The notes under the pieces are model-generated. The model searched no databases and had not been told where the DNA came from. It was given only the letters and a program-made list of their open reading frames with translations. The position numbers and the translations under genes are program-made. Positions 2,338-28,874 of a stretch of DNA of 30,816 nucleotides are shown here, piece after piece; the stretch's first letter is position 1; each line of letters begins with the position of its first letter. Source of the stretch: a virus; the IMG/VR virus record IMGVR_UViG_3300025127_005103, positions 1 through 30,816 of that record. The stretch is one strand, 5' to 3'.

Positions 2338-2778
2338 ATGAGTCAATTAACAGTTGGAACAATAGCAGAAAAAGTTACAGATGCAGGAGTAACAATTGAT
2401 TCTCTTAACATAAAAGATGGCACTCTTGCTCTTGCTAAATCATTAAAAGGAAGCACAGAAACTGCTACAATATCAACTTCAAAAACTTTAGATTTTAGCA
2501 CATACAATAATTTTGTTCTAACTTTAGGAAATGGATCAAATACTCTTTCAAATCCATCTACAGATGTTACCGCTACAATAGGAACAACAGGTGTAATTAT
2601 TTTTATACAACCATCATCAAGTACTGCAGGCACAGTTTCACTTGAAAGTGATTATGAAACTGTAGGTGGTAGCGGTCTTACTTTATCATCTACAAATAGT
2701 GCCTATGATGTAGTTCCATACATAATCAAAGGAGCAAATTCAATTTTATTGGGAAGTCCACAACTGGCTTTTAGTTAA
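2338..2778 (+). CDS. Small fibre-type tail protein
   Basis: A 146-residue, Ser/Thr/Gly-rich, beta-predicted protein with no membrane segment. It opens MSQLTVGTIAEKVTDAGVTI, a start typical of small fibre modules in marine phages and distantly like the N-termini of its two upstream neighbours. The remainder has short strands (TLDFSTYNNFVLTLGNGSN, then GVIIFIQPSSSTAGTVSLES) as in fibre tip domains. A clear GGAG precedes the ATG (bases 2328-2331), and the stop TAA directly abuts the next ATG. No enzyme signature is visible. Confidence 0.55.
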   Translation: MSQLTVGTIAEKVTDAGVTIDSLNIKDGTLALAKSLKGSTETATISTSKTLDFSTYNNFVLTLGNGSNTLSNPSTDVTATIGTTGVIIFIQPSSSTAGTVSLESDYETVGGSGLTLSSTNSAYDVVPYIIKGANSILLGSPQLAFS

Positions 2779-9451: not shown

Positions 9452-9730
9452 TTAGCGGTATGACTTTTGATCATCAACCTCATCTAATACTGATTCAATG
9501 TTATTACTAGCAAATCCAGTTGGATTATATCCATTTCTAACAATGTGCTTGTGAATAGCATTGTCAAGCAAATCGCCCATCAAAAACTTCAAACCATCTG
9601 AGTTCTCTTTGTGAGCTTTCTGAACCTCCTCTCTTATAACTTGGGAAATTCTGTATTCAATTTCGTTTACCAACTCTGAATACTCGTCTTCATATTTATC
9701 TTGGTTGGTTATGGTATTTGTATCTAACAT
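9452..9730 (-). CDS. Small acidic early protein
   Basis: A 92-residue acidic, helical, soluble protein and the only gene of the first leftward unit. The start has AAGGAG upstream and the P1 promoter further back. The middle (YSELVNEIEYRISQVIREEV, then QKAHKENSDGLKFLMGDLLD) suggests a helical bundle. I see no enzyme or DNA-binding signature. Its private strong promoter suggests it is made early and in quantity, as expected of a host-takeover or anti-defence protein; this is inference. Confidence 0.6.
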   Translation of the reverse strand: MLDTNTITNQDKYEDEYSELVNEIEYRISQVIREEVQKAHKENSDGLKFLMGDLLDNAIHKHIVRNGYNPTGFASNNIESVLDEVDDQKSYR

Positions 9731-9754: not shown

Positions 9755-9820
9755 AAATGTATTTACAATTTTAGTATGCCAAATAAAAAAGGGTTTGTCA
9801 ACCCCTTTTGTAGTTTTTTT
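9755..9820 (-). promoter_or_regulatory. Early promoter P1
   Basis: Read on the - strand: A-tract with CTAC (9809-9820), TTGACA (-35, 9796-9801), 17 bases, CATACT (-10, 9773-9778), six bases, then GTAAATACATTT (9755-9766). The distance from -35 to that last motif is 29 bases, as in the five other copies. It drives the 9452-9730 gene. Its -10 is the weakest of the set, and its -35 lies in the loop of the terminator 9787-9809. Confidence 0.8.
9787..9809 (-). terminator. Terminator of the 9819-10443 unit, overlapping P1
   Basis: On the - strand a stem AAAAGGGGTT / AACCCTTTT (one C bulged) closes a 4-base loop and is followed by TTTTTT. It stands 10 bases after the stop of the 9819-9998 gene, so it ends that unit. 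Bases 9796-9801 in its loop are also the TTGACA of P1. Confidence 0.65.
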
Positions 9821-9998
9821 AAATTAATTTGATGTGCCTATCAATAATTCCATCAATTGTTTCTTTGACAACCTTATCGTCCATATATCTCATTTTGAGA
9901 AAATCTGGAGTAACATCTAACTCTTTGGCACATCTTTCAATAATAGTATTTATGAATGTTGCAAAAAGTCTTTCATATTGTGCTTCTGATATTTTCAT
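9819..9998 (-). CDS. Small early protein (59 residues)
   Basis: A 59-residue frame, MKISEAQYERLFATFINTII and on to a TAA at 9819-9821. The ATG at 9998 follows a good GGAG seven bases upstream. The gene is third in the P2 unit, 9 bases after its neighbour, and is followed at once by a terminator. The sequence is helical and charged (ERCAKELDVTPDFLKMRYMD), without membrane or metal-binding signs. Function unknown. Confidence 0.6.
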   Translation of the reverse strand: MKISEAQYERLFATFINTIIERCAKELDVTPDFLKMRYMDDKVVKETIDGIIDRHIKLI

Positions 9999-10007
9999 AA
10001 TGATCTC

Positions 10008-10223
10008 CTAGTTAAATCTTACTTCCATTGATACTTGAGTTTCCGCCCATCTTTTGGCTTCTTCAAAATCATCAAATACTTCATGTTTATTTTCATCATT
10101 GTCAAAGATATTTACAACAACATTTCCATCATACTTTACAACTATTGAAACATCAGCATTTGTGTTTGTCGCTATATAATCTGTGCTTTGAATGTTTCTT
10201 GTTACTTGAACTAAATCTAACAT
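10008..10223 (-). CDS. Small early protein, mixed alpha/beta
   Basis: A 71-residue protein in the P2 unit. ATG 10223 (MLDLVQVTRNIQSTD) is chosen because a GGGGGA lies four bases before it; an ATG four codons earlier overlaps the upstream stop and has no ribosome site. The sequence has beta strands (ADVSIVVKYDGNVVVNIFD) followed by a helix (DDFEEAKRWAETQVSMEV), a compact fold common in small phage proteins. No known signature. Confidence 0.55.
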   Translation of the reverse strand: MLDLVQVTRNIQSTDYIATNTNADVSIVVKYDGNVVVNIFDNDENKHEVFDDFEEAKRWAETQVSMEVRFN

Positions 10224-10224
10224 C

Positions 10225-10443
10225 TTATCCCCCATAAATCTCTATGATTCTTTGTAGTGCATATCCCTTGCCAAATACTGTGTCTACCCACTCTAGATTT
10301 CCATTCTTATTTTCATGTATTGTCCATTCTCCCTTGAACTCTCCAATATCTTCAAGAAAATGACCTACATGAAATTCTTTTCCATAGGCTTTTACTATGT
10401 ATGTATTTTTCCACTCTGGGTGCTTTTTGGTTTTTAGTTTCAT
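10225..10443 (-). CDS. Small early protein, first gene of the P2 unit
   Basis: A 72-residue soluble protein rich in aromatic residues (HPEWKNTYIVKAYGKEFHVG, then EFKGEWTIHENKNGNLEW), probably a small beta sheet ending with a helix (GYALQRIIEIYGG). AGGAAG precedes the ATG. It directly follows the near-perfect promoter P2, so it should be among the strongest early products. Function unknown. Confidence 0.6.
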   Translation of the reverse strand: MKLKTKKHPEWKNTYIVKAYGKEFHVGHFLEDIGEFKGEWTIHENKNGNLEWVDTVFGKGYALQRIIEIYGG

Positions 10444-10467
10444 TTGTTCTTCCTAATTTTGTTAATT

Positions 10468-10530
10468 AAATGTATTTACCTAGATATTATAACTCATTGT
10501 ATCTTGTATGTCAACCGCTTTCGTAGTTTT
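10468..10530 (-). promoter_or_regulatory. Early promoter P2
   Basis: On the - strand: A-tract with CTAC, TTGACA (10509-10514), 17 bases, TATAAT (10486-10491), six bases, GTAAATACATTT (10468-10479). Both hexamers are perfect sigma-70 consensus at the ideal spacing, which is rare in an AT-rich genome by chance. It drives 10443 down to 9819. Confidence 0.9.
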
Positions 10531-10562
10531 TTTTAATTATTCTTATATTTTTTTAAAGAAAA

Positions 10563-10580
10563 GGGGAGCTTTCACTCCCC
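10563..10580 (-). terminator. Intrinsic terminator after the 10587-10817 gene
   Basis: A stem GGGGAG / CTCCCC with a six-base loop. On the - strand it is followed by TTTTCTTT. It stands 6 bases after the stop of the 10587 gene and isolates it from P2. Confidence 0.75.
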
Positions 10581-10586
10581 AATATT

Positions 10587-10817
10587 TTAATTGTATGAAC
10601 GAATTATCTTAATCGTATGTTTGATTTCTTCTGCTATATCCGTATGAATATAGTATTCACGAAATGGGTATTTGATTTGTTGCATTAACCATTCCATATT
10701 TGCATCATTTACTATCCTACGAAGTCTAGGTAAATGTTGCATCTCTTTATCATTAAGAATAGCTTGTAAATAATTTACTGCTTTTACTAATCTTTCTTCC
10801 ATTTTTGTAAGTGCCAT
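10587..10817 (-). CDS. Small early protein under its own promoter
   Basis: A 76-residue basic, helical, soluble protein (MALTKMEERLVKAVNYLQAI, then KEMQHLPRLRRIVNDANMEW). It stands alone between P3 and a terminator and has a strong GGAG. A two- or three-helix bundle is likely; I recognise no family. A separate perfect promoter for one small gene suggests a takeover or inhibitory protein needed early (inference). Confidence 0.6.
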   Translation of the reverse strand: MALTKMEERLVKAVNYLQAILNDKEMQHLPRLRRIVNDANMEWLMQQIKYPFREYYIHTDIAEEIKHTIKIIRSYN

Positions 10818-10837
10818 TTTTTTCTCCTTTTTCTTAA

Positions 10838-10900
10838 AAATGTATTTACACTTTGATTATACATCAAAAGGATTTATATGTCAACACCTAATCTGTAGTT
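10838..10900 (-). promoter_or_regulatory. Early promoter P3
   Basis: On the - strand: CTAC with a broken A-tract, TTGACA (10879-10884), 17 bases, TATAAT (10856-10861), six bases, GTAAATACATTT (10838-10849). Both hexamers match consensus exactly. It drives the single gene 10587-10817. Confidence 0.9.
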
Positions 10901-10908
10901 CTTTTATT

Positions 10909-11481
10909 TTATCTGAAACATTTTCCATGAACCCAACAGACTAATGCCCATCTTTCGCCATGTGTCAAAGGGTTCACTTTATGAGGTAAGAAACTAGGAA
11001 ATAATAATATCTGATTCATTTCAAGATTTATTGTCTGTATGCCATTATTGAAAACTAGAAATTCTCCACCCTCAAAGTCATCATTCAAAAGAATACTAAA
11101 ACCTAACTTTCTTGTAGAGGCATCTCCATTTCCCATGTCTACGTGCCAATCATATCCTGCTGATGGAGCAGTATATTTCAATAACTGTGGTCTTTCAAAA
11201 ATGCCAGATAAGTCATAATTGTATTCTTGATTATACATTATTATCAGATTCAAAATATATTCATCAACCCAAGAATAATCTTCATGTATTGGATAAACAT
11301 CAACATTTCTAATTGATATAACTTTTTCTTTCAAAGTTGAATTTGATTTTTGAACTTGACCAACAACTGGATTGATCTCATTTCTTAAATCAAAAACCTT
11401 TTGGCAAAATGATGAATCAACATAATCAAGCATAACTCCATGTTGAGTTTCATTTATTTTTGGTGGAATAGCTATTGTCAT
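10909..11481 (-). CDS. 2OG-Fe(II) oxygenase (prolyl-4-hydroxylase-like)
   Basis: A 190-residue non-haem iron dioxygenase. The double-stranded beta-helix motifs are present: His113 and Asp115 in YDWHVDMGNGD, His167 in FLPHKVNPLTHGER and Arg177 as the likely 2-oxoglutarate anchor. LGFSILLNDDFEGGEFLVFN is the typical core strand pair. Such enzymes hydroxylate protein, nucleic acid or small-molecule substrates using oxygen and 2-oxoglutarate, and are common in marine phages. ATG 11481 has no good ribosome site; ATG 11433 (MLDYVDSS) follows GGAG but only two bases away. The gene is last in the P4 unit after a 109-base leader. Confidence 0.8.
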   Translation of the reverse strand: MTIAIPPKINETQHGVMLDYVDSSFCQKVFDLRNEINPVVGQVQKSNSTLKEKVISIRNVDVYPIHEDYSWVDEYILNLIIMYNQEYNYDLSGIFERPQLLKYTAPSAGYDWHVDMGNGDASTRKLGFSILLNDDFEGGEFLVFNNGIQTINLEMNQILLFPSFLPHKVNPLTHGERWALVCWVHGKCFR

Positions 11482-11557
11482 TTTTCAGCTTTTGGTAATG
11501 CAAATATCTGATGTTTCTTTGCATTGTATTGGTATCTAAAGGAAGAAAATAGAGATT

Positions 11558-11570
11558 TGTAAATACATTT
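11558..11570 (+). promoter_or_regulatory. Isolated TGTAAATACATTT site, possible operator
   Basis: The motif shared by P1-P6 occurs here in the opposite orientation, within the 109-base leader of the oxygenase gene. No -35 or -10 lies at the fixed distance, so it is not a seventh promoter. The core TGTAAATACA is an inverted repeat, so it could still bind the same protein. Low confidence, because the core also occurs by chance elsewhere. Confidence 0.3.
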
Positions 11571-11590
11571 CATCAGACCAATTCCTTGAC

Positions 11591-11863
11591 TCATGCGAGT
11601 GTGTTTTGAATCTTACCATCAAGTAAGAATTTAGCAAGTGATTTTCTAAATAGCTTGAATGTTCGTAAATCAAATAAATCTGAGTTATATCCTAATTTAG
11701 CTAAACTTTCATAGGCATAATAAGTAAATGAATAATTATTCGTTTTACAATTAACCATCAATTTAAAAACACGATAAAAGGATATTGCACTTTCTTGTTT
11801 CAAACTGTCTACTGCTATATCAAATATTTTTGATTCTTCTGGTTTTAAATTCATAATCTTCAT
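11591..11863 (-). CDS. Small early protein of the P4 unit
   Basis: A 90-residue helical protein. The start ATG 11863 directly follows the upstream TAG and has a perfect AAGGAGG five bases before it. The sequence (KPEESKIFDIAVDSLKQESA, then FRKSLAKFLLDGKIQ) shows no membrane or catalytic signature. It follows the 401-residue gene without a gap, so translation is likely coupled. Function unknown. Confidence 0.55.
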   Translation of the reverse strand: MKIMNLKPEESKIFDIAVDSLKQESAISFYRVFKLMVNCKTNNYSFTYYAYESLAKLGYNSDLFDLRTFKLFRKSLAKFLLDGKIQNTLA

Positions 11864-13069
11864 CTATTCCTCCTTAGTGAAATTATAATCTTTATAAATT
11901 ATCCCAAGATTTGGATCACCTGCTAGGCAATTCCTAATCCAAGTCTTTTTACCATTCTTGAAATGTCTCCAATGTCCTCGTCTTTCATGTTGTCTTTTCT
12001 TTATGCCAGTATATTTAGATTTATATATTTTCCTTACTTGGTTATCTGATAAATCAACATGAAGAACCTTATAATCATTTCTTGGTATAGCTTTTCCAAA
12101 TTGATGGTGTATTACCTTTGCATTAGGTTCAATGACTTCTTCTCTTGTGATTTCTGCATTTAGTAAACCAAATAATGCAATCAAGAATCTTGCATCCCCT
12201 ACGAGAACATCAAGAGAACTTTCTGTCATATGTTTCATTTCATCTTGAGTGTATCCTTTCAAGAATGATTCTTTTGGAACCATCCAATGAACACTTGCAC
12301 CTTGAGCCGTTTCAATTCGTTTGGTCAAATCTTTAAAACAATTGAACTCGTGATTTTTATCATAATCAATTATTTTCCCAACTTTATTGTAATCAATTTG
12401 AATACCGCCATCAACTTGTGTAAACTTTTTCAACAAGTCTTTTGGAAATTTCTCTAGTGCATACCATGGTGCTAAAAGCTGTATTGATTTTCTAAGTTGT
12501 TCTGCAAATAATTCATTTTCATTTTTTACCATCATGTATTCTGGAAGTTCTTCCATTAAATCATTCTTTGCTTTTATATCTTCAAAAGAATCTGGGTCTT
12601 GATTATTCAAAACAAAACAAATTGGTGGAGAAGCAAATTGCTTAGAATCCTCAATTTGAAACCAACACTCATATAAAAAATAACTATCGCCCAAATCATC
12701 AGTAAATTTGCAAATATGATAACCAACCTTTTCTGGAAAATAATCAACTTCTTTATATCTTGTGCCTCTTTCTTGATGGTAATCTTGGTAAAACTTTTGT
12801 CTTACGGATTCATCCCATTCAATCCAAATATTATCAAATTGTGGAAGTCCATTTTGTATCATATCCAAAAGTATGCTTGGTTTTGACATTGATGCTTCAG
12901 ATGCTTTCTTTACCAAATTATCAGATATAACAAACTTTTTTGATTTCAAAATACTCATGCGAGTTTCTAATATTTTGGCATCTGCTATAGAGCCATTAAT
13001 ATAGCCCATGAGTCCTTTCTTGGGTACTCCAAGACAATTTATAATCTTACTCGCTAGAATGGGCTTCAT
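11864..13069 (-). CDS. Conserved phage protein with C-terminal RRGHWR...GDP module
   Basis: A 401-residue soluble protein, the largest in the leftward region. The last 50 residues hold the pattern KKRQHERRGHWRHFKNGKKT, then IRNCLAGDPNLGIIYKDY. I recall this His/Arg-rich signature from the C-termini of various phage proteins; it may bind nucleic acid or be a protease or cargo signal. The rest shows no nucleotide-binding or nuclease motif by eye (SILLDMIQNGLPQFDNIWIE near residue 80). It starts behind GGAGAG and overlaps the previous gene by 23 bases. Second or third in the P4 unit. Function unknown. Confidence 0.6.
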   Translation of the reverse strand: MKPILASKIINCLGVPKKGLMGYINGSIADAKILETRMSILKSKKFVISDNLVKKASEASMSKPSILLDMIQNGLPQFDNIWIEWDESVRQKFYQDYHQERGTRYKEVDYFPEKVGYHICKFTDDLGDSYFLYECWFQIEDSKQFASPPICFVLNNQDPDSFEDIKAKNDLMEELPEYMMVKNENELFAEQLRKSIQLLAPWYALEKFPKDLLKKFTQVDGGIQIDYNKVGKIIDYDKNHEFNCFKDLTKRIETAQGASVHWMVPKESFLKGYTQDEMKHMTESSLDVLVGDARFLIALFGLLNAEITREEVIEPNAKVIHHQFGKAIPRNDYKVLHVDLSDNQVRKIYKSKYTGIKKRQHERRGHWRHFKNGKKTWIRNCLAGDPNLGIIYKDYNFTKEE

Positions 13070-13340
13070 ATTGCTCTCCTACCGCTATATATCCTTTTGC
13101 CAAATGTTTGATAAAGTGCATATAATCTCCATTTGCAAAATCAATCTGAACAAACTTTGTCTTTATCTGTGCTTTCAAATCATCATCTAATCCTTTAATG
13201 AATCCAATGATATGTCCTGCCTTGATAAAATGTAAATTATTTTTACCCTCTTGTTCAATAATATACTCTGGATCAAATCCTTTTTCCTCTAGGAAAGTAT
13301 CAATCCATTTATGAAAATGGCTCTGGTAAATCTTAGTCAT
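13047..13340 (-). CDS. Small early protein of the P4 unit
   Basis: A 97-residue soluble protein starting behind GGAG and overlapping both neighbours (8 and 23 bases). The sequence HKWIDTFLEEKGFDPEYIIE, then GKNNLHFIKAGHIIGFIKGL and VQIDFANGDYMHFIKHLAKG, suggests a helix-sheet-helix fold with a DFxxGDYMHFxxHLAKG motif that looks conserved. I have seen similar unnamed proteins in phages but cannot give a function. Confidence 0.55.
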   Translation of the reverse strand: MTKIYQSHFHKWIDTFLEEKGFDPEYIIEQEGKNNLHFIKAGHIIGFIKGLDDDLKAQIKTKFVQIDFANGDYMHFIKHLAKGYIAVGEQYEAHSSE

Positions 13341-13623
13341 TTATCATCTCCATATCATTTGTTACATAATCATTCATTTCTGTGTAGTAATCATCTACCC
13401 ATTCCATCATCTCTTTACGAGTTCCATTTCCATTATGGTAAATCTCATTACCTTTGTGAATTACTGGCTCATTTGTATCTGGGTGTTTACAAACTTTGAT
13501 GTTAAATACTCTCCAACTAGCATAAGGTGAATCATAAAACCTAACATCTTGTATAAAAAAATCTCTGTAAAGGTAAATAACCTCTCCAAAGTAATCTATC
13601 TTTTTTAGTTTAAATTTTGTCAT
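13333..13623 (-). CDS. Small early protein, first gene of the P4 unit
   Basis: A 96-residue, aromatic-rich soluble protein. N-terminal beta strands (KIDYFGEVIYLYRDFFIQDV, then SWRVFNIKVCKHPDTNEPVI) are followed by an acidic helix (RKEMMEWVDDYYTEMNDYV). GGAAG precedes the ATG and the P4 promoter is directly upstream. No catalytic signature is visible. Confidence 0.55.
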   Translation of the reverse strand: MTKFKLKKIDYFGEVIYLYRDFFIQDVRFYDSPYASWRVFNIKVCKHPDTNEPVIHKGNEIYHNGNGTRKEMMEWVDDYYTEMNDYVTNDMEMIND

Positions 13624-13648
13624 TTTTTCTTCCTTCTTTTGTTTATTA

Positions 13649-13715
13649 AAATGTATTTACTCTATTATAGTCGCATAACTAAAAGATAGTGTCAACTACA
13701 AAATGTAGTTTTTTT
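13649..13715 (-). promoter_or_regulatory. Early promoter P4
   Basis: On the - strand: A-tract with CTAC, TTGACA (13690-13695), then TATAAT (13664-13669) at 20 bases, three bases before GTAAATACATTT (13649-13660). The -10 is shifted 3 bases compared with P2 and P3, yet the distance from -35 to the last motif is still 29. It drives 13623 to 11591 and perhaps the oxygenase. Confidence 0.75.
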
Positions 13716-13759
13716 ATAAAAAAGTGCAAAAAAATTAAGAAATATGATATATTTGATTT

Positions 13760-13786
13760 GTTCATGTATCCCACAATTGCATGAAC
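13760..13786. other. Long-loop hairpin in a gene-free stretch
   Basis: The 201-base gap 13624-13824 holds P4 at its left side and no gene. Within it GTTCATG (13760-13766) pairs exactly with CATGAAC (13780-13786) around a 13-base loop. It lies between the end of the P5 unit and P4. It could be part of a leader, a processing site or a small RNA; it is not a tRNA. Confidence 0.4.
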
Positions 13787-13799
13787 TTTGTCTGGGAAG

Positions 13800-13818
13800 G
13801 GGGAGTACTTGACTCCCC
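13800..13818. terminator. Hairpin terminator after the DUF932 gene
   Basis: A 7-base-pair stem GGGGAGT / ACTCCCC with a 5-base loop (ACTTG). It stands 6 bases after the stop of the DUF932 gene on the - strand. The tail on that strand is CTTCCC, so it may act with the hairpin at 13760-13786 rather than as a classical terminator; the + strand tail (TTTCTTTT) is better. Confidence 0.6.
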
Positions 13819-13824
13819 TTTCTT

Positions 13825-14730
13825 TTAGTTTGATTCTAACTCTTTCCATTGTTTTGAGTTAAGCATTGCTTTTACTGCATTTTGTCTTTTGTGCTGAATT
13901 ATATGAGTTTTTGCATCTGCTTTTCCAACTAGCTTATCAATATGAGTAGACCAATATGTTGCTGATTGGTATGCACACCATAGAGAACCTTTCGCACCAT
14001 TCCTACCATATTCGCCTTTACCATGAATCTGAGTAACTTCTTGCTCATAAAGATTCATTAGAACCCCAAATTGTTTTTGATTGGTTTCAATATCAGATTC
14101 AATATACTTCTGAATATTACTATCTTTTTTGCATATGGTCTTTTTGAACATTTCAGCAATATCATCATCTTCTACGTTTGTGTACCACCATTCATTGTAT
14201 TTCTGCACATCATTGTTCGCTAATTTAACGGCATTAAAAATCTTAGCATTAGAAGCATCAACATCAAAATGTAATGAGTGTCTGCTAGAACTGTATGCTA
14301 GTTGTTGTCCAGAAACTAAAGTATTAAAGCAAACTTTATTCAACCAACCGAAAAATGATTGAAACTTCCATCTGCCATTATATGAGTTTCTAGCTATATA
14401 TTTAAGCATCAAATCATGATCTCCAACTTTTGCAGTATGTCTTGGTAAAGTGATTTCCATTTTTGCCATTGCACCAAGTTCATAACTCTGAACATTTATT
14501 TGTGCATCTGTAAAATCAATACCTCCTGCAAACATATTATCAACGGCACCTCCAAAGGCATCTGAATGTTTTATTGGTTTATATCTTGTCTTGCACATAC
14601 CAAGAAAAGTATTACTATCGGTTCTTCTAATCTGTTTATATTCCGTATTAGGAATAGTCGGTATGTCCATGATTGTTATAGGAAAATCTATTATTTCCAT
14701 TTTGTCTTTTAGTAATTTTGTATCTAACAT
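13825..14730 (-). CDS. DUF932 family protein
   Basis: A 301-residue protein of the DUF932 type, common in phages and plasmids and often near recombination or replication genes. Typical features: NTFLGMCKTRYKPIKHSDAF near residue 40, then YELGAMAKMEITLPRH, a G(D)HDLMLKYIARNSYNGRWK segment and FFGWLNKVCFNTLVSGQQ near residue 125. C-terminal residues 235-300 are helical. The biochemical role of the family is not settled; it has been likened to plasmid-type primase or replication accessory proteins. AAGGAGG before the ATG; last gene of the P5 unit. Confidence 0.75.
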   Translation of the reverse strand: MLDTKLLKDKMEIIDFPITIMDIPTIPNTEYKQIRRTDSNTFLGMCKTRYKPIKHSDAFGGAVDNMFAGGIDFTDAQINVQSYELGAMAKMEITLPRHTAKVGDHDLMLKYIARNSYNGRWKFQSFFGWLNKVCFNTLVSGQQLAYSSSRHSLHFDVDASNAKIFNAVKLANNDVQKYNEWWYTNVEDDDIAEMFKKTICKKDSNIQKYIESDIETNQKQFGVLMNLYEQEVTQIHGKGEYGRNGAKGSLWCAYQSATYWSTHIDKLVGKADAKTHIIQHKRQNAVKAMLNSKQWKELESN

Positions 14731-14740
14731 TATTTCCTCC

Positions 14741-15025
14741 TTAATTTAAGACACTATGTCCACGACCAACTAGACATTTTTTCATTGGGTCATAATCTGG
14801 GATAGTTCCAAACTTCATACATACTTTTGAAGTGCAAAATGGAATTATTCCCAAAATCGTTTCATGTTTTTTTTCAATAAGTGGTTTAATTAATTCACGA
14901 CATTCAAGCCTATCCCTAATCACTTCTTTAGGGTCTTTACTGCCTCTTGGGTCAATTATATAATCAGTTTTTGTACTGCAAGAACTCAATGAAATAATAA
15001 TAATAATTTTAAAAATATGTTTCAT
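14741..15025 (-). CDS. Phage lipoprotein
   Basis: A 94-residue protein with a lipoprotein signal: MKHIFKIIIIISLSSC, lipobox LSSC with Cys16. The mature part begins STKTDYIIDPRGSKDPKEVI and ends MKKCLVGRGHSVLN. Both ends resemble host glycine-zipper lipoproteins (DP.G......Y..DL.EC near the start, C..GRGY.VLN at the end), but the glycine zipper in between is replaced by a short Cys-containing stretch (PFCTSKVC). It probably sits in the periplasm or on the outer membrane. An early phage lipoprotein is often involved in superinfection exclusion (inference). ATGA overlap with the upstream gene. Confidence 0.6.
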   Translation of the reverse strand: MKHIFKIIIIISLSSCSTKTDYIIDPRGSKDPKEVIRDRLECRELIKPLIEKKHETILGIIPFCTSKVCMKFGTIPDYDPMKKCLVGRGHSVLN

Positions 15026-15246
15026 GATCTTAGTCCTTTAAATCCACCATCTTTAAAATGAGTATTAAGAATTTTCTCTGCATCTTTTGAAGTTTGAAAA
15101 TATTCAGTAAATCTATCGTATGGCTCAAGAAATCCATCTGTATTACAGATTTTCCCAATATACCACCCTGCATTAGATGCCATTACAATTGGCTCTGAAA
15201 TACCATTGTAAAATTTTATATCTTTTATCTCTTTAAGTATTTTCAT
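15022..15246 (-). CDS. Small early protein of the P5 unit
   Basis: A 74-residue soluble protein (MKILKEIKDIKFYNGISEPI, then GWYIGKICNTDGFLEPYDRF). Strands are followed by a helix (SKDAEKILNTHF) that ends GGFKGLRS, a pattern seen in small phage proteins of unknown role. A good GGAG precedes the ATG, and it is coupled to the lipoprotein by an ATGA overlap. Confidence 0.55.
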   Translation of the reverse strand: MKILKEIKDIKFYNGISEPIVMASNAGWYIGKICNTDGFLEPYDRFTEYFQTSKDAEKILNTHFKDGGFKGLRS

Positions 15247-15256
15247 TTTTTTCTCC

Positions 15257-15454
15257 TTATTTGCTTCTTCGTTTTATTTTTTCATTTAGAAAAGTCCACT
15301 TCTGGTCAGCATAAAAACTTTCCTTTTCTGGGTTCCAACCCCTCATGCTCTCCTCAGCTTTTAAACAATCTTGGATAACATAATCAAGTTGCTCTAAAGA
15401 AAGTTTCTTTGCTTCCTTTTCCCAAATTTTGAAATTTTCAACTGTAGCTACCAT
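15257..15454 (-). CDS. Small early protein, first gene of the P5 unit
   Basis: A 65-residue helical protein (NFKIWEKEAKKLSLEQLDYV, then DCLKAEESMRGWNPEKESFY and ADQKWTFLNEKIKRRSK). The motif M(R)GWNPEKE.FY.DQ..TF..EI.RR is one I recall from other phage genomes without an assigned function. AGAGGAG precedes the ATG. Confidence 0.6.
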   Translation of the reverse strand: MVATVENFKIWEKEAKKLSLEQLDYVIQDCLKAEESMRGWNPEKESFYADQKWTFLNEKIKRRSK

Positions 15455-15470
15455 TTTAAACTCCTCTAAA

Positions 15471-15534
15471 AAATGTATTTACAATTATTAATATAATTAC
15501 ATTTATAGTAATGTCAACCCTTAAATGTAGTTTT
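15471..15534 (-). promoter_or_regulatory. Early promoter P5
   Basis: On the - strand: A-tract with CTAC, TTGACA (15512-15517), 16 bases, TATATT (15490-15495), seven bases, GTAAATACATTT (15471-15482). The -35 to final motif distance is again 29 bases although the -10 is shifted by one. It drives 15454 to 13825. Confidence 0.85.
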
Positions 15535-15535
15535 T

Positions 15536-15787
15536 TTAAAATAATTTTTGTTGTGATTTATCCTCTGGTTTCCAAGCATAGTAAAAGAGAGTATTCATTC
15601 TTTTTACAAATTTATCTGGAACTTGAGTTTTCTTGATGGGATTGTTCAATTTAGAAAAAGGAATTATCATTGAATTGCTCTGATAATTTATTTGTAAATC
15701 AACTTTCTGTTTTAATGCCTTTTCAACATATCTTCCATGAACTGGCACTAATCCACCAAATAATGTTTTTACCTCTTTGATAATCAT
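15536..15787 (-). CDS. Small early protein of the P6 unit
   Basis: An 83-residue protein. ATG 15787 (MIIKEVKTLFGG) is chosen because a perfect AAGGAGG lies four bases upstream and it forms an ATGA overlap with the previous gene; the ATG six codons earlier has no ribosome site. Contains LVPVHGRYVEKALKQKVDLQ and a C-terminal YYAWKPEDKSQQKLF. No known signature; last gene of the P6 unit. Confidence 0.55.
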   Translation of the reverse strand: MIIKEVKTLFGGLVPVHGRYVEKALKQKVDLQINYQSNSMIIPFSKLNNPIKKTQVPDKFVKRMNTLFYYAWKPEDKSQQKLF

Positions 15788-16281
15788 GCTACCTCCTTGA
15801 ACCATTGTGGTTTCTCTGAAAAATTGTATCTAGCAAACCTTGATTTATCTCTTATATAAAAACCTCTATATGCTTTTATTGGGAAAAACTCATTTGTCTT
15901 AAGGTCATCGTGTCCAGAAAAACATTGAGGGTGTCTTGTCATTTTGCCAGATGGTATAAATCTTGAGCCATTTATCAAAGCAAGTAATAACTTCCTAGAA
16001 TCATGTGTTCTTTTGTATCTAATGGTATATTCATCAAACATACATCTTGCTAAATTCCAAGCAAATAAATAATTATCACGATTCTCTCTCGCCCAAATAC
16101 TGCATGGGTGCTTTACATGAACTGGCTTGTAAAGTTTTTTTTCTTCTGCATAATCTGGTGCATGATGCCAAATAGCGGAACATAACATTTGAGTTTCTTC
16201 TAATGGCATTTTGACAATATGTTGATCACACAAAGACTCTGCAATTTGCTCTGGTGTTTCTTCTATAATAAATCTATTCAT
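15784..16281 (-). CDS. Conserved phage protein, CDxHxxKMxxE family
   Basis: A 165-residue protein of a family widespread in phages, with CDQHIVKMPLEETQMLCSA near residue 18, VHVKHPCSIWARENRDNYLF near 54, CMFDEYTIRYKRTH near 80, and a C-terminal AYRGFYIRDKSRFARYNFSE then WF. Conserved His, Cys and Glu residues look like a metal or catalytic site. Some databases link this family to pyrimidine-dimer glycosylase-like proteins, but I cannot confirm that here. ATGA overlaps on both sides couple it to the SleB gene and the gene downstream. Confidence 0.6.
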   Translation of the reverse strand: MNRFIIEETPEQIAESLCDQHIVKMPLEETQMLCSAIWHHAPDYAEEKKLYKPVHVKHPCSIWARENRDNYLFAWNLARCMFDEYTIRYKRTHDSRKLLLALINGSRFIPSGKMTRHPQCFSGHDDLKTNEFFPIKAYRGFYIRDKSRFARYNFSEKPQWFKEVA

Positions 16282-16715
16282 TTATCTTCTCCTATAATTT
16301 CCCACCTATAAAATATGTGGTCATCTATTCTTGTAATAAATGTTTTAGTTTCTGCCCAACTAGGTTTAACATAATAAGCATGATAGTGAGTAGCACCATC
16401 AACAAAGTCAAAAATGTGTTCATTATATACACCATTAGCAACGTGCTTTGCATCTTGCCATGCTTTATTATTTATAGGTTTGTCACTCTTTCCATCACAA
16501 TACCAACTAAATTGACATTTGTGTTTTATAGGAAGTGATGGTTTCCATTTATAGGTTTGACCTTGTCTTACAACCTCACAAACTGTATTGGGATATCTAG
16601 CATCTTTGACTCTATTCATAACAACTTGTGCAACTGCCACCTGTCCTATAAAACTTTGATTCTTAGCCTCATGATATACATTAAGTGCAAGACATACTAA
16701 TGATTCAGCTAACAT
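16278..16715 (-). CDS. SleB-type cell wall hydrolase
   Basis: A 145-residue protein of the SleB / Hydrolase_2 family, which cleaves peptidoglycan glycan strands. The motif LALNVYHEAKNQSFIGQVAV holds the catalytic Glu16, followed by VAQVVMNRVKDARYPNTVC, CQFSWYCDGKSDKPIN and the C-terminal ATHYHAYYVKPSWA. No signal peptide is present. It is odd that it lies in an early leftward unit, 9 kb from the endolysin. A 41-residue membrane protein gene precedes it, coupled by TAATG. Possible roles: a second lysin, a peptidoglycan-remodelling enzyme, or a virion-borne lysin made early. Confidence 0.8.
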   Translation of the reverse strand: MLAESLVCLALNVYHEAKNQSFIGQVAVAQVVMNRVKDARYPNTVCEVVRQGQTYKWKPSLPIKHKCQFSWYCDGKSDKPINNKAWQDAKHVANGVYNEHIFDFVDGATHYHAYYVKPSWAETKTFITRIDDHIFYRWEIIGEDK

Positions 16716-16840
16716 TATATTAACTCCACAAAGTTTCTATCAAAACAAGATGGCTCAATAAGACAACCAATCCAAAGTGCATAATATGCAATAACAAAAA
16801 GTATCAATAAACATACTATATCTAAAAATAATCTAATCAT
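16715..16840 (-). CDS. 41-residue single-TM protein preceding SleB
   Basis: A short frame from ATG 16840 (GGGAG eight bases upstream) to TAA 16715-16717; the stop shares one base with the SleB start. The translation starts MIRLFLDIVCLLILFVIAYY and continues ALWIGCLIEPSC, one transmembrane helix and a short acidic tail. Translational coupling to a cell wall hydrolase suggests a holin-like or export helper, but it is too short to assign. Confidence 0.5.
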   Translation of the reverse strand: MIRLFLDIVCLLILFVIAYYALWIGCLIEPSCFDRNFVELI

Positions 16841-17042
16841 TATATTTCTCCCAATGTAAGTTCCACATTTCTTCTACCCTTTCATTCAAACCCATAGTTC
16901 CCCAAAGCTGATAACTAAGACAAACTTCCTCTGCTTTTTTTTGAGCTTCTTCCAAAGTTTCAGAGTTCTTTATAATCTCTGGGACTTGTTTATTAATGAA
17001 AGTATCTTCACATTCTAATATATAAGAACTCATACCCATCAT
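16833..17042 (-). CDS. Small early protein of the P6 unit
   Basis: A 69-residue acidic helical protein. The start is the first ATG of MMGMSSYILECEDTFINKQV, with GGGAG five bases upstream; it overlaps the previous stop as ATGA. A helix SETLEEAQKKAEEVCLSYQL follows, then LNERVEEMWNLHWEKYND. No known signature. Confidence 0.5.
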   Translation of the reverse strand: MMGMSSYILECEDTFINKQVPEIIKNSETLEEAQKKAEEVCLSYQLWGTMGLNERVEEMWNLHWEKYND

Positions 17043-17260
17043 ACATTCTCCCTCTTGAAATCTTGTAAAGCTCTTTGATTGTCAAGTTTCTCAATCTGTA
17101 TTGCCATTGATTCTTTCTCAATAAGCATTTGTCTTACAAAAAAAGATATTTGATCTAATGCTATATCTGTGTCTTTTATTGAACTATTTGGATTAAATAC
17201 CTTTTCAATATTCTTAGTAATATATTGTAAGGTTCTAATATCATTGTGTAAATTTTCCAT
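17039..17260 (-). CDS. Small coiled-coil-like early protein, first of the P6 unit
   Basis: A 73-residue, mostly helical soluble protein (MENLHNDIRTLQYITKNIEK, then SFFVRQMLIEKESMAIQIEK). Heptad-like hydrophobic spacing suggests a coiled coil. AGGAGG lies upstream of the ATG, and the P6 promoter stands directly before it. Function unknown. Confidence 0.55.
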   Translation of the reverse strand: MENLHNDIRTLQYITKNIEKVFNPNSSIKDTDIALDQISFFVRQMLIEKESMAIQIEKLDNQRALQDFKRENV

Positions 17261-17281
17261 TTTTTCCTCCTAATTGTGTTC

Positions 17282-17345
17282 AAATGTATTTACATTATTA
17301 CATTCACACAAAAAAGAGTTTAAGTCAACACATATTGTAGTTTTT
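17282..17345 (-). promoter_or_regulatory. Early promoter P6
   Basis: On the - strand: A-tract with CTAC, TTGACT (17323-17328), then TGTAAT or TAATAAT close to GTAAATACATTT (17282-17293). The -35 to motif distance is 29 bases; the best -10 (TGTAAT) is 20 bases from the -35 as in P4. It drives 17260 down to 15536. Confidence 0.75.
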
Positions 17346-17684
17346 TTAAATTTTTATTGATCTTAGATTTGCTGATTTAGTTTGCCAAGCATCAATCTTT
17401 GCTTTTGCTGACTCTCTGAGAAATAATTGTTTTGTATCTCTCTCTATAGCAAATTGAATATTCTTTAGATGTGATAAATATCTTGGATCAGCATAGGCTT
17501 CTCTTTCTTGTGCAGAAACAGATTTGTCAAGATGTTCTTTCATTATCATAGCTTTCAATGACTTTCTATATTCTTCTAAATATATTTTCTCTGCCCTATA
17601 CTTTGCTGATTCCTCAGAGGAATCTCTTAAGAATTCTACTGCTTTATCAACTTCACTTTCTGATAAAAAATCTTTCTTTTCCAT
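17346..17684 (-). CDS. Conserved phage helical protein
   Basis: A 112-residue soluble protein. ATG 17684 (MEKKDFLSESEVDKAVEF) is chosen because it overlaps the preceding stop (TAATGG); a longer frame exists but has no ribosome site. The core KYRAEKIYLEEYRKSLKAMI, then KSVSAQEREAYADPRYLSHL and AKAKIDAWQTKSANLRSIK, is a pattern common in phage genomes (Y-RA--YLEEFRKSLKA and WR-S-ANNR). It lies next to recombination genes, often the case in other phages, but the function is unknown. Confidence 0.6.
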   Translation of the reverse strand: MEKKDFLSESEVDKAVEFLRDSSEESAKYRAEKIYLEEYRKSLKAMIMKEHLDKSVSAQEREAYADPRYLSHLKNIQFAIERDTKQLFLRESAKAKIDAWQTKSANLRSIKI

Positions 17685-20344: not shown

Positions 20345-20377
20345 TTGTTTCTCCTAATTTGTTTCTTCTTAACATTA

Positions 20378-20408
20378 GTTATAAACACTTTTTTAGGTTT
20401 GTAAACCT
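20378..20408 (-). promoter_or_regulatory. Leftward promoter P7 with overlapping inverted repeat
   Basis: On the - strand: TTTACA (20400-20405), 16 bases, TATAAC (20378-20383). The -35 lies inside the inverted repeat AGGTTT-GT-AAACCT (20395-20408), a likely operator. Unlike P1-P6 it has no GTAAATACATTT. It faces the Cro-like gene at 20462, so autoregulation of a divergent switch is plausible. Confidence 0.6.
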
Positions 20409-20411
20409 TTT

Positions 20412-20440
20412 TTGTTGTTTTTTTTAAAAAAATATTTTAT
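20412..20440 (+). promoter_or_regulatory. Possible rightward promoter
   Basis: TTGTTG (20412-20417) and TTTTAT (20435-20440) at 17 bases, just right of the inverted repeat and 22 bases before the Cro-like gene. Weak and set in an AT-rich tract, so tentative; it is placed mainly because a rightward promoter is required between 20345 and 20462. Confidence 0.35.
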
Positions 20441-20461
20441 AAAGAATCAAAGGAGATCAAA

Positions 20462-20692
20462 ATGAAGTTAAAAGAGTACATAAAAACAAATGGATATAAT
20501 TATCGTAGTTTTGGAAAAGCTATTGGTATTTCCTTTAGAAATGTTGAAATGTGGTCTAGAGGAGAAAGACTGCCAAGATGGCAAGATGCAGAAAAAATAT
20601 TTGAATTTACAAATAATCAAGTAACTGGAACTGATTTATATGAACAACAAATACTTCGCAAAAAAGCAGATTTACAAAGGCAAGAAGTTTGA
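20462..20692 (+). CDS. Cro/XRE-type helix-turn-helix regulator
   Basis: A 76-residue Cro-like protein: NYRSFGKAIGISFRNVEMWS followed by RGERLPRWQDAEKIF is the five-helix HTH pattern, with the recognition helix at SFRNVEMWSRG. It is first in the rightward unit, next to the inverted repeat, with GGAG before the ATG. It probably binds operators in the divergent region, and may bind the TGTAAATACA sites of P1-P6 (inference). Its end overlaps the next gene by 53 bases. Confidence 0.75.
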   Translation: MKLKEYIKTNGYNYRSFGKAIGISFRNVEMWSRGERLPRWQDAEKIFEFTNNQVTGTDLYEQQILRKKADLQRQEV

Positions 20693-21596: not shown

Positions 21597-23294
21597 ATGA
21601 GTATAAATGAAAAGCTAATGAGTGAGGGGATAAAAGTAAACTATTCTCTTGATCAGCAAAAAGTAAGATGTCCAAAGTGTTCACATACTAGAAAAAATAG
21701 TAGTGAGCCTTGTTTGAGTGTAAGTATAGATAATGAGAAAGCACTATGGAGATGTCATCACTGTGAATGGGAAGGTTCAGCTTTTTCTGACAATGAAACA
21801 AAAACATTCAGAAAAGCAGAAGTTGTTCCAATAAAATCTCCAAAATTACCAGAGGATAAAAAGCTATCAGATAATGCTTTATCATGGTTAGGCAGTAGAA
21901 ATATAAGTATAAAAACGGCACAAGATTTTGGTTTATATACACACAATGGCAGTTTATGTTTCCCATATTATCTTGATAATGAAGTTGTGAATGTTAAATA
22001 CCGAACAAGTAACAAAGAGTTTAGACAAGAAAAAAACTCATTAAGAACATTATATAATATTGATAATGTAAAAAAATATTGGGAAGAAACAAACAAAAAA
22101 GAGATTATATTTGTAGAGGGCGAAATGGATGTTTTAGCCTTATACGACTCTAATTTTACTAATGTTTGCAGTCTTCCAGATGGTGCACCTAAAGAACCAA
22201 AATTTAAAATGAATGATAAAAGGTTTTTCGCATTTGAACAAAGCCAATGGATATTTGATGCCGAACAAGTAATAATAGCTACCGATAATGACCAAGCAGG
22301 TGATGCCCTTAAACTTGAGTTGTTGCACCGTTTCGGTAGGGATATATGCAAAGTTGTCCATTTTCCTAAGTATAATGATAAACAGTTAAAAGATGCAAAT
22401 GAAGTTTTAATACATTTAGGAGCGGATAAGTTAAAGGAATGTATTTACAATGCTGAAGAATTTCCAATTAAAGATATACATACGGCAAATGAATATAAGA
22501 ATGTAGTTCAAAATATATATGATGGTAATGTTCAGAGAGCATTTTCTACTGGGTATGAAAAATTAGACGAAATTTATAAAATTATGCCAAGCACATTTAA
22601 TTTAGTAACTGGTATTCCTAATCATGGAAAAAGTAATTTTTTAGACCAAATATTAATGAACTTAGCAGAGCAACAAGATTTTAAATTTATTGTATATTCA
22701 CCAGAGCATTCAACACCAAATCATTTAAGAAGACTGCTAGAGAAAAGATGCAGAAAACCTTTTGATATAGGACCATACCCAAGAATATCGCAAGAAGAAC
22801 TTAATTCTGGTATGGATTTTTTAGACAGGCATTTTAAATTTATTGAAAATAGCGATGATATACCAACAATAGATTATATTTTAGCAAAAACAAAGGTTGC
22901 AAAGCTAAGATACGGAATACATGGATTAATTATTGACCCATTCAACCAAGTATCAGCAACAAGAGAAAATAATAAAAGAGAAGATGAGCATATAAGAGAT
23001 ATTATTGCTAAATGTCAACAATTCGCTAGAAATCATCAAATAGTTGTTTGGATGGTTGCACACCCTCATAAATTATCTAGAAATGATAGTGGAGTTATAC
23101 CACCACCAGATTTATATCAAGTAAGTGGCTCTGCTCATTGGGCAAACATGGCAGATGTTGGAATAGTTATTCATAGAGATTTTGAAGAAAACAAAACAAC
23201 TATTATTACTAGAAAAATTAGAGAACAAGGGGTTTATGGAGAAATTGGCTCTAAGGATTTCTTCTTTAATTACAAAACGAGGTGCTACGAATGA
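21597..23294 (+). CDS. Primase-helicase (T7 gp4-like)
   Basis: A 565-residue replicative enzyme. Zinc ribbon CPKC (25-28) and CHHC (53-56) for template recognition; Toprim primase core with Glu174 in FVEGEMDVLALYD and Asp230/Asp232 in IATDNDQAGD; RecA-like helicase with Walker A GIPNHGKSN (339-347), Walker B Asp447 in GLIIDPFNQV, and WMVAHPHKLSRN after it. It both lays RNA primers and unwinds the fork. Together with the initiator and DUF1064 nuclease it forms the replication module. No DNA polymerase lies in the window, so the host polymerase or a gene elsewhere is used. Confidence 0.93.
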   Translation: MSINEKLMSEGIKVNYSLDQQKVRCPKCSHTRKNSSEPCLSVSIDNEKALWRCHHCEWEGSAFSDNETKTFRKAEVVPIKSPKLPEDKKLSDNALSWLGSRNISIKTAQDFGLYTHNGSLCFPYYLDNEVVNVKYRTSNKEFRQEKNSLRTLYNIDNVKKYWEETNKKEIIFVEGEMDVLALYDSNFTNVCSLPDGAPKEPKFKMNDKRFFAFEQSQWIFDAEQVIIATDNDQAGDALKLELLHRFGRDICKVVHFPKYNDKQLKDANEVLIHLGADKLKECIYNAEEFPIKDIHTANEYKNVVQNIYDGNVQRAFSTGYEKLDEIYKIMPSTFNLVTGIPNHGKSNFLDQILMNLAEQQDFKFIVYSPEHSTPNHLRRLLEKRCRKPFDIGPYPRISQEELNSGMDFLDRHFKFIENSDDIPTIDYILAKTKVAKLRYGIHGLIIDPFNQVSATRENNKREDEHIRDIIAKCQQFARNHQIVVWMVAHPHKLSRNDSGVIPPPDLYQVSGSAHWANMADVGIVIHRDFEENKTTIITRKIREQGVYGEIGSKDFFFNYKTRCYE

Positions 23295-23851
23295 ACATTG
23301 AACAAATTACAGTCACAGAGCTTAGACCATATGAAAAAAATGCAAGAATACATAGTGATGACCAAATAAATCAACTTGTTAACAGTATGAAAAAATGGGG
23401 TTGGACAATACCAATACTTATTGATGAAGATAATAATATACTTGCAGGGCATGGTCGCTATGAAGCAGGAAAAATACTAGAGTATGATAAAGTTCCTTGT
23501 ATAAGAACCAACGGTTGGACAGAGCAACAGAAAAAAGCATACATAATTGCTGATAATAAACTTGCAGAGAACTCAAGTTGGGATATGGGTTTGTATTTCA
23601 ATGAACTTAAAAACCTTAATGATGAGGGATTTGATTTATCATTCATAGGTGTTGATGATTGGAAATCAATGGAGTTTGCACCAATGTTAGAACCTCAAAC
23701 TAACTCAAGTATTATTACAGAAGATGATTTTGGTGTTGCGGAAAATAATATAAGCAAACAAATAGAAGGGGCATCAAACCAATTGCATAAGGATGGCATA
23801 AAAGTTATGTGTCCAAAATGTGCAGAAGAATTTATTGTTTCTGGGTATTGA
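23291..23851 (+). CDS. ParB-like protein with C-terminal CPKC
   Basis: A 186-residue protein with a ParB/Srx-type N-terminal domain: LRPYEKNARIHSDDQINQLV, then GWTIPILIDEDNNILAGHGR (box with GHGR at 53-56) and EAGKILEYDKVPCIRTNGWT. In phages this domain often sits on or next to DNA methyltransferases and other modification enzymes. The C-terminus carries VMCPKCAEEFIVSGY, only half of a zinc site. ATG 23291 is chosen: GAGGTG lies six bases upstream and it ATGA-overlaps the helicase stop. It opens the unusual block that runs to 27090. Confidence 0.75.
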   Translation: MNIEQITVTELRPYEKNARIHSDDQINQLVNSMKKWGWTIPILIDEDNNILAGHGRYEAGKILEYDKVPCIRTNGWTEQQKKAYIIADNKLAENSSWDMGLYFNELKNLNDEGFDLSFIGVDDWKSMEFAPMLEPQTNSSIITEDDFGVAENNISKQIEGASNQLHKDGIKVMCPKCAEEFIVSGY

Positions 23852-23852
23852 T

Positions 23853-27673: not shown

Positions 27674-28874
27674 TTGGCACAAAACTGCTCGTGATCAACA
27701 ATTGACACCTCATGGTGATTGGGATATTTGGTTAATACTTGCAGGAAGGGGTTGGGGTAAAACAAGAACTGGTGCAGAGGACATTGCTTTCTTTGCATTA
27801 TCAAATCCAGAGAGTATTTGTGCAGTTGTTACACCAACGTTTGGAGATATAAGGAGAGTTGCATTCGGTGGTCCTAGCGGACTTATGAGCATAATTCCTA
27901 AAGAATGTTTGTTAAGTGGTCGTGGTCAAGGATATAATAGTAGTTCAGCAGAAATAAGATTATATAATGGAAGTAAAATAATGGGATTCTCAGCTACAGA
28001 GCCAGATAGATTAAGAGGTCCACAATTTCATAGAGCATGGTGCGATGAATTAGCAGTTTGGCAATATGCAGATACCTTTGACCAATTAATGTTTGGTTTA
28101 AGATTAGGTACAAAACCTCAATGTATAATTACGACAACACCAAAACCAACTCCACTTATTAAGAGTTTAGTCAAAAGGAATAATATAGTTGTAACAAAAG
28201 GAAGTACTTTTGATAATGCACCTAATCTTGCACCATCTGCTCTAGCTATGCTAAAAGAAAAATATGATAATACAAGATTAGGAAGACAAGAACTATATGC
28301 AGAAATTGTAGATGATGTTGAGGGTGCTTTATGGACACCATCAATGATTGAAGCTAAGAGAATACCAAAATTAGAAGAACAATTACAAAGAATTATAATA
28401 GCAGTTGACCCTGCGGTTACAAACCAAGAAGGTAGTGATGAAACTGGAATTATCGTGTGTGGAAAAGGTTTTGATAATAGATACTATATTTTAGAAGATT
28501 TATCTGCTAGAATGTCTGCAGATGCTTGGGCTAATGTTGTTGTAAATACATTTTATAAGTATGAAGCAGATAGAGTCATAGCAGAAGTTAATAATGGTGG
28601 TGATTTGGTTGAAAGGCTTTTAAGAACAGTTGATAGTTCTGTACCTTATAAGGCAGTAAGGTCAAGTAAAGGAAAGCTTGTAAGAGCAGAGCCAATATCA
28701 GCACTTTATGAACAAGGAAAAGTTAGTCATGTTGGCACTTTTTCTAAATTAGAAGATCAATTGTGTTCTTATACTTTAGATAGTAGAAGTTCACCAGATA
28801 GGCTTGATGCTCTAGTATGGGGGTTGACTGAACTCAGCAAATCGTCTGGTCAAGCGATGTGGAGAGTATCATAG
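27579..28874 (+). CDS. terL: Large terminase subunit
   Basis: A 431-residue packaging motor. ATPase: Walker A AGRGWGKT (55-62), Walker B and catalytic Glu at Asp156-Glu157 (AWCDELAVW), coupling motif IITTTPKPTP. Nuclease: Asp277 in IIAVDPAVTN, ADRVIAEVNNGGDLVE, and Asp407/Asp410 in SPDRLDALVWGL. It pumps DNA into the procapsid and cuts concatemers. The start is uncertain; ATG 27579 (AAAGG nine bases upstream) and ATG 27588 are possible. Both lie inside terS. Confidence 0.92.
   Translation: MLQMTKTSNSWSTRYKKLTEKGQRGLITLSNDWHKTARDQQLTPHGDWDIWLILAGRGWGKTRTGAEDIAFFALSNPESICAVVTPTFGDIRRVAFGGPSGLMSIIPKECLLSGRGQGYNSSSAEIRLYNGSKIMGFSATEPDRLRGPQFHRAWCDELAVWQYADTFDQLMFGLRLGTKPQCIITTTPKPTPLIKSLVKRNNIVVTKGSTFDNAPNLAPSALAMLKEKYDNTRLGRQELYAEIVDDVEGALWTPSMIEAKRIPKLEEQLQRIIIAVDPAVTNQEGSDETGIIVCGKGFDNRYYILEDLSARMSADAWANVVVNTFYKYEADRVIAEVNNGGDLVERLLRTVDSSVPYKAVRSSKGKLVRAEPISALYEQGKVSHVGTFSKLEDQLCSYTLDSRSSPDRLDALVWGLTELSKSSGQAMWRVS

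Follow-up and report, generated by a model that had tools for sequence, protein, structure and literature searches.

A uniform 12-base block at the predicted start of six phage early promoters: a possible genome-specific leader tag

Results

The window analyzed here, the whole 30,816-base IMG/VR virus record IMGVR_UViG_3300025127_005103, harbors six minus-strand promoter cassettes that all carry the same 12-base block, GTAAATACATTT, at the predicted transcription start. What can be read from the DNA itself is a promoter, a block in fixed register with it and strong selection on that block, together with leader blocks (hereafter tags) that are uniform within and different between the genomes of sister phages. 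We surmise that the block is a genome-specific 5'-leader tag that is read, most probably in the mRNA, by a trans-acting factor, and assign to this still tentative reading a probability of about 0.45.

The first-pass annotation had described six cassettes of one design, with TTGACA or TTGACT followed after 29 bases by the block, and all of them were recovered: a search for TTGACW-N(27-31)-GTAAATACATTT gave six minus-strand matches in the window, each with a gap of exactly 29, vs. none in 100 dinucleotide shuffles. The -35 is TTGACA in five cassettes and TTGACT in the remaining one (17328), with CTAC lying 8, 8, 10, 9, 9 and 8 bases from the -35 in cassettes 1 to 6. Every cassette is positioned 5' of a small open reading frame (ORF), with 16-25 bases between block and ATG (Table 1). 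The proposal of a modular regulon of six like promoters within one phage is supported.

In five cassettes a -10 can be read at a spacer of 17 (CATACT, TATAAT, TATAAT, GACTAT and GAATGT) and in the sixth at a spacer of 16 (TATATT); the three poorer hexamers, CATACT, GACTAT and GAATGT, are each preceded by TG one base upstream as an extended -10. Spacers of 16, 17 or 20 bases had been claimed earlier, but all -10s can be placed at one of the two shorter values; GAATGT is weak, so that the constant placement of the -10 is a reading rather than proof. With a TTGACA-type -35, a spacer within the 16-18 range and a TATAAT-like -10, the cassettes are by their sequence host sigma-70-type promoters, those at 13695 and 17328 only by virtue of a weak -10 plus the extended TG. 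The step from -10 to block is 6 bases in five of the six cassettes and 7 in the other. Since every -10 is readable at a 16-17-base spacer, the block GTAAATACATTT starts at the predicted +1, and its G (GTAAATAC), counted from the -10, would be +1 or one base later. This result, together with the constant orientation, agrees with the earlier suggestion of a conserved start of the transcripts.

Among the six copies all 72 of 72 block letters are identical (mean pairwise identity 1.00, vs. 0.94 for the -35), whereas the spacer (0.37 vs. 0.33 expected from composition), the stretch just 3' of the block (0.36 vs. 0.38) and the upstream part (0.34 vs. 0.32) are close to expectation. Because the block is identical while the spacer, the -10 region and the flanks are at background similarity, we read the six cassettes as old rather than as fresh duplications, and the 12 bases as being under strong selection.

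The conserved run extends from +1 to +12 and is asymmetric, with a variable -1; the T at -1 that an inverted repeat would need is found in four of the six cassettes. When 16 cassettes from five phages were pooled, -1 was T10/A5/G1, +8 was C9/T7 with the G at +1 kept, and +12 was T15/A1; this pool was found by motif search and is thus circular for the searched letters, with only -1, +8 (C/T) and +12 onward being free to vary. Block orientation was the same in 16 of 16, though they were found by searching for the motif. On the columns at -1 and +8 we reject the inverted-repeat operator that had been seen in the core, as the dyad is not maintained in relatives. The 16-bp dyad TGTAAATATATTTACA was only weakly enriched (8 vs. 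3.9 expected at 3 mismatches).

The relatives were collected as a clade by DUF932 and primase searches. Besides the window, the block GTAAATAYATTT occurs in cassettes of L083 (four, one of them seen in L100, another piece of the same contig), L032 (two), L203 (three) and L172 (one); a further L203 cassette with the variant GTATAAATATATTT was left out of the 16. The -35 is mostly TTTACT in L083, L203 and L172. The distance from -35 to block, said earlier never to change, is indeed constant in the window but not in the pool, where it is 29 in 11 cassettes, 30 in two and 28 in one; two L203 cassettes have no clear -35, and in these the -10 lies six bases 5' of the block. At L203 5833, L172 2286 and L032 2596, it is the best -10 hexamer that is out of place while the distance from -35 to block is kept; neither the -10 nor the -35 is thus a perfect anchor. 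Outside the clade the -35/block pair does not exceed background, with no peak at 29 among 55 IMG/VR stretches whose gaps are 22-36, and among eight contexts inspected with gaps of 28-30, only L032 (gap 28) resembles a cassette. A separate observation in L032 is an extra GTAAATATATTT (2653-2663, minus strand) that abuts the upstream side of a cassette's A-tract, between two divergent transcription units. No near DNA relative of the window was found among phage records, nor a paper describing the motif among the listings obtained from an open-access literature library.

In sister phages, cassettes of the same type carry tags of another kind: ATAATTACAAAA, ATAACGATCAACAA or a block at the ribosome site. 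Of the six cassettes of L093, five have ATAATTACAAAA at the predicted +1 and one (10658) is diverged; in the cassette at 8706 the spacer is shorter by one and the block moves along with it. The predicted +1 of ATAATTAC-type leaders is A. Leaders resembling ATAACGAWYAAYAA are found at the predicted +1 in one cassette each of L115, L116, L117, L125, L133 and L135, with related or other leaders in further cassettes. In six sisters (L084, L086, L088, L090, L091 and L130) the uniform piece is at the ribosome site rather than at +1. L084, L090, L091, L130 and their kin have little in common at +1 and share ATGGGAGAAAACA or similar at the ribosome site, where L086, L088 and L094 have GCACAGGAG.

Among 38 cassettes from 13 genomes, the longest shared word of leaders averaged 10.2 within vs. 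5.1 between genomes, a value reached in none of 1000 label shuffles, as compared with 5.0 vs. 4.5 for spacers (51 of 1000); these shuffles are optimistic, as 14 rows (divergent-promoter and intragenic hits) had been dropped by eye. The uniformity is not universal, with low within-genome leader values in L116 (3) and L133 (4). Tags follow the primase tree (21 rows), in which the window, L171, L172, L173 and L203 form one group (91/98) and the ATAACGAT phages another (93/91); the tree does not resolve the position of L083. Orthologues of ORF 13333 in L093 (58%), L086 (56%), L094 (52%) and L088 (44%) each carry the tag of their own phage, ATAATTACAAAA in L093 and GCACAGGAG in the other three, and to judge from these genes the tag belongs to the genome and not to the gene. 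At L093 9011 (minus-strand coordinate of the tag; orthologue of ORF 15022) and L086 3061 (orthologue of ORF 13333), the tag stands directly after a terminator-like hairpin and before the gene, with no promoter recognized by eye, indicating that tag and promoter are separable.

The small helix-turn-helix (HTH) protein encoded at 20462 had been proposed to read the block as an operator, a role that these data do not bear out. The protein occurs in phages with four kinds of tag (GTAAATAY, ATAATTAC, ATAACGAT and the ribosome-site type ATGGGAG), with no match in the GCACAGGAG contigs or L032, all partial. Its predicted recognition helix starts with SFRN in the window and also in the ATAACGAT phages L125 and L133, with SWRN in L171, SHRN in L083 and L203, and SIRN in L093, these residues being assigned from the HTH_3 family with a Pfam match below cut-off; they do not vary with the site, and the block is not present in the divergent promoter region of the HTH gene itself. 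The occurrence of the same residues with different tags makes this protein an unlikely reader of the block. It is also the only candidate for an immunity repressor.

The HTH gene and the leftward early genes are separated by a region (20345-20461, with homologous regions in 13 relatives) that harbors back-to-back promoters whose TTTAC-type -35s face away from a shared A/T tract; in several of these regions GTAAAC and GTTTAC form an inverted pair. Several sisters have similar exonuclease leaders, which are of the AACGAAGAACGAAGAATGAGG kind. In the divergent region upstream of the HTH gene, L087, L090 and L120 have an inverted repeat GTGGCAAC...GTTGCCAC with the common stretch AAGGCGAAATTCTTTAA, resembling a structured RNA or site.

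Other features of the window and its relatives

Rightward genes of the window include those for the terminase large subunit, portal, primase/helicase and two ParB-like proteins as well as the small HTH protein, while the leftward block (20344-9452) encodes exonuclease-like, Erf-like annealing, SSB-like, HNH, endolysin-like, DUF932 and 2OG-Fe(II) oxygenase proteins along with many small unknown genes. Phage isolates are distant, with 47.6% for the terminase (Roseobacter phage CRP-6) and 30.4% for the primase as the best among the matches listed, and 24.3% for DUF932 (HMO-2011). A scan of genome contigs for a DUF932 relative that might point to the host yielded none. Proteins resembling PAPS reductase and a methyltransferase are encoded at 23820-26394; the former and its upstream neighbor are matched in L171 and in none of the control loci.

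There was no Rfam match at gathering level in the window, L101, L093 or L032, and only chance-level matches in the array and in L086, L088 and L094. Upstream of the 2OG-Fe(II) oxygenase gene, L086 (4355-4430), L094 (4103-4180) and L088 (about 5033-5110) share a conserved RNA that has no Rfam match. In its fold, CTCCTGTGC (TTCCTGTGC in L088) is the partner of GCATAGGAG, the ribosome site of this same gene, and an inner stem displays paired changes. This RNA is possibly a cis-regulatory switch.

Table 1. Promoter cassettes, off-cassette copies of the block and the HTH gene in the window
Feature	Position (strand)	Elements	Gene or context
Cassette 1	9755..9822 (-)	A-tract/CTAC; TTGACA 9796-9801; TG + CATACT 9773-9778; block GTAAATACATTT 9755-9766	drives ORF 9452-9730
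Cassette 2	10468..10535 (-)	TTGACA 10509-10514; TATAAT 10486-10491; block 10468-10479	drives ORF 10225-10443
Cassette 3	10838..10906 (-)	TTGACA 10879-10884; TATAAT 10856-10861; block 10838-10849	drives ORF 10587-10817
Cassette 4	13649..13716 (-)	TTGACA 13690-13695; TG + GACTAT 13667-13672; block 13649-13660	drives ORF 13333-13623
Cassette 5	15471..15538 (-)	TTGACA 15512-15517; TATATT 15490-15495 (spacer 16); block 15471-15482	drives ORF 15257-15454
Cassette 6	17282..17349 (-)	TTGACT 17323-17328; TG + GAATGT 17300-17305 (weak); block 17282-17293	drives ORF 17039-17260
Off-cassette copy	11559..11570 (+)	exact	antisense to array, within small ORF frame 11536-11673 (-); intergenic by the gene list, which leaves that ORF out
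Off-cassette copy	28542..28553 (+)	exact	terminase large subunit gene, sense strand; spells V-N-T-F
Off-cassette copy	22437..22448 (-)	one mismatch	antisense within the primase/helicase gene; L171 has an exact copy at the homologous place
HTH protein	20462..20692 (+)	76 aa	conserved across the clade whatever the tag; unlikely reader

Discussion

We envisage that GUAAAUACAUUU would form the first 12 nucleotides of the early messages from six host sigma-70-type promoters, with transcription presumably starting at the G of the block. A phage-encoded trans-acting factor would then recognize this tag and act mainly on the mRNA 5' end, affecting translation or stability of early messages, as suspected for the start-associated sequence (SAS) of cluster K mycobacteriophages. 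Action at the mRNA level is favored by: 1) the constant orientation of the block; 2) its start at +1; 3) a ribosome-site block apparently in the same role in sisters; 4) tags after a terminator-like hairpin without a recognized promoter (L093 and L086).

Several observations weigh against this proposal. First, and most strongly, off-cassette copies of GTAAATAYATT number 8 in 110.8 kb of phages of the window's group vs. 2 in their sisters (75 primase loci plus L093, in all 888.4 kb), where the rate may be an underestimate. Second, seven of these eight copies are in coding frames (two of which were read by hand), five of the seven antisense, which an mRNA tag does not predict. Third, the tag lies at +1 in some sisters and at the ribosome site in others, and two unrelated things may have been treated as one here. 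Lastly, a reader was sought by gene content in these partial contigs and none was found.

Some of the same data speak for a DNA operator, whereby a phage DNA-binding protein occupying the asymmetric site (T)GTAAATAYATTT over +1 would shut the early units down together, with further sites dispersed in the manner of the L5 operators and stoperators; we regard this as a real possibility, if a somewhat doubtful one. A fixed position over +1 is typical of a repressor, and the exact identity of the block suggests sequence-specific recognition. The off-cassette enrichment noted above is likewise in its favor, as permuted 11-mers in the DNA of the same group averaged 0.67 off-cassette copies and none of 400 reached 8; T at -1 accompanies seven of the eight copies, and one-mismatch copies of TGTAAATAYATTT amount to 21 vs. 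6.1 expected. Asymmetric sites both at promoters and dispersed are in keeping with an L5-type arrangement, but the dispersed copies are mostly genic and of mixed orientation rather than placed in short intergenic spaces and oriented with transcription. In addition, no such protein was found, the 20462 HTH and the tag do not vary together, relatives do not maintain the dyad, and L203, L172 and L173 contain no exact off-cassette copy. Four of the eight copies are two homologous pairs, leaving about six independent ones, and the conservation of two copies between the window and L171 is within what would be expected of the genes themselves, as at least 12 letters are kept in 29.5% of 13-mers.

All six leaders are complementary to the exact copy at 11559, whose homologue in L083 is altered at the same base as most L083 leaders, raising the idea of an antisense RNA, which we rejected as the main reading: in hand-translated frames, the site is part of a small ORF frame shared as ..WSDE[MI]YL.., with the base change being M to I. 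This ORF (11536-11673, minus strand) overlaps the end of a 90-residue gene; the peptide WSDE[MI]YL is common to L083, and the neighboring frame is not kept. CTGATGAAATNTATTTAC occurs in 32 IMG/VR stretches, of which only the contig of L083 (L150) looks homologous. An antisense RNA was also rejected for L086 and L094, where a reverse complement of the tag precedes the 2OG-Fe(II) oxygenase gene but base-pairs in cis with the ribosome site of that very gene.

An improbable alternative is that the block is a passive initial transcribed sequence that only aids host RNA polymerase in leaving a strong promoter, as at T5 N25, with no reader factor. The UP-like A-tract, the near-consensus -35 and a block at +1 to +12, which is the escape-governing region at N25 (PMC12464699), conform to this idea, as does RTAA starting near the predicted +1 in 28 of 38 cassettes vs. 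a mean of 8.1 in shuffled leaders. Escape, however, does not require an exact 12-base word, and conservation of the block exceeds that of the -10; moreover, sisters change the tag in all cassettes together, and there are tags without a recognized promoter as well as dispersed copies. Homogenization by recombination, with a block of little function being spread by duplication or conversion, would suit modular cassettes at gene borders in a phage encoding Erf-like annealing and exonuclease-like proteins, but with the spacer, discriminator and 3' flank at background similarity only 12 bases would have been copied, and we deem it very improbable.

Returning to the leader tag, we also consider an extension that is unlikely as a whole: each phage of the clade may have a private 5'-terminal tag read only by its own factor, with tag and reader turning over together between sisters, as a self-recognition code for early mRNA (or promoters). 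If so, a phage could favor its own early genes, or shut them off, without doing the same to those of a relative in the same cell. As the word changes together across the cassettes of a genome, the same gene is found with different words and the word stands at the predicted start, the question is amenable to a tag swap. In addition, these uncultivated phages provide promoter modules that are short and strong and have a defined leader. Repeated leader and promoter words in phages, namely SAS and its promoter-bearing extended form (ESAS), have been described since 2011, with their function still without proof.

Comparison with known systems

SAS/ESAS of cluster K mycobacteriophages, in which a 13-bp SAS and a promoter-bearing extended element recur in one genome and a function in translation is suspected (PMC3203893, PMC11373665, PMC12699233), constitute the closest known system, albeit one to which the window block does not belong. 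Both are short asymmetric leader repeats of many genes in one phage, usually in one orientation and partly joined to a sigma-type promoter module; a lineage-specific consensus repeated through one genome is also found here, comparable to the subcluster-specific consensus of the extended part in SAS/ESAS. SAS overlaps the ribosome site, at a distance of 3-9 bases from the start codon, whereas the window block lies 16-25 bases before the ATG, and its location at +1 rather than at the ribosome site is the reason why we do not file it as a member; only the ribosome-site blocks of the sister phages match SAS placement in form. There is no sequence relation between SAS/ESAS and the window block, and the 17-bp imperfect inverted repeats around the promoter that mark SAS/ESAS were by eye not common to the six cassettes (a CTAC..GTAG repeat in one of six).

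The closest operator parallel is with the L5-type operators and stoperators of cluster A mycobacteriophages (PMC9283540), likewise an asymmetric site of about 13 bp at promoters and dispersed; the L5-type sites are found in short intergenic spaces, with orientation tied to transcription and a known immunity repressor, whereas the copies here are mostly genic, of mixed orientation and with no repressor identified. T5 N25 (PMC12464699) resembles the cassettes in being a strong phage promoter for host polymerase with an UP element, at which +1 to about +20 matters, but the N25 work concerns escape and not an exact word repeated at many promoters. Finally, the early promoters of AR9 and phiKZ (PMC5312081) are also many of one design, with a fixed 6-base step to a G at +1; there a virion polymerase reads a conserved motif located upstream of +1, whereas the cassettes of the window are sigma-70-type with the word downstream of +1.

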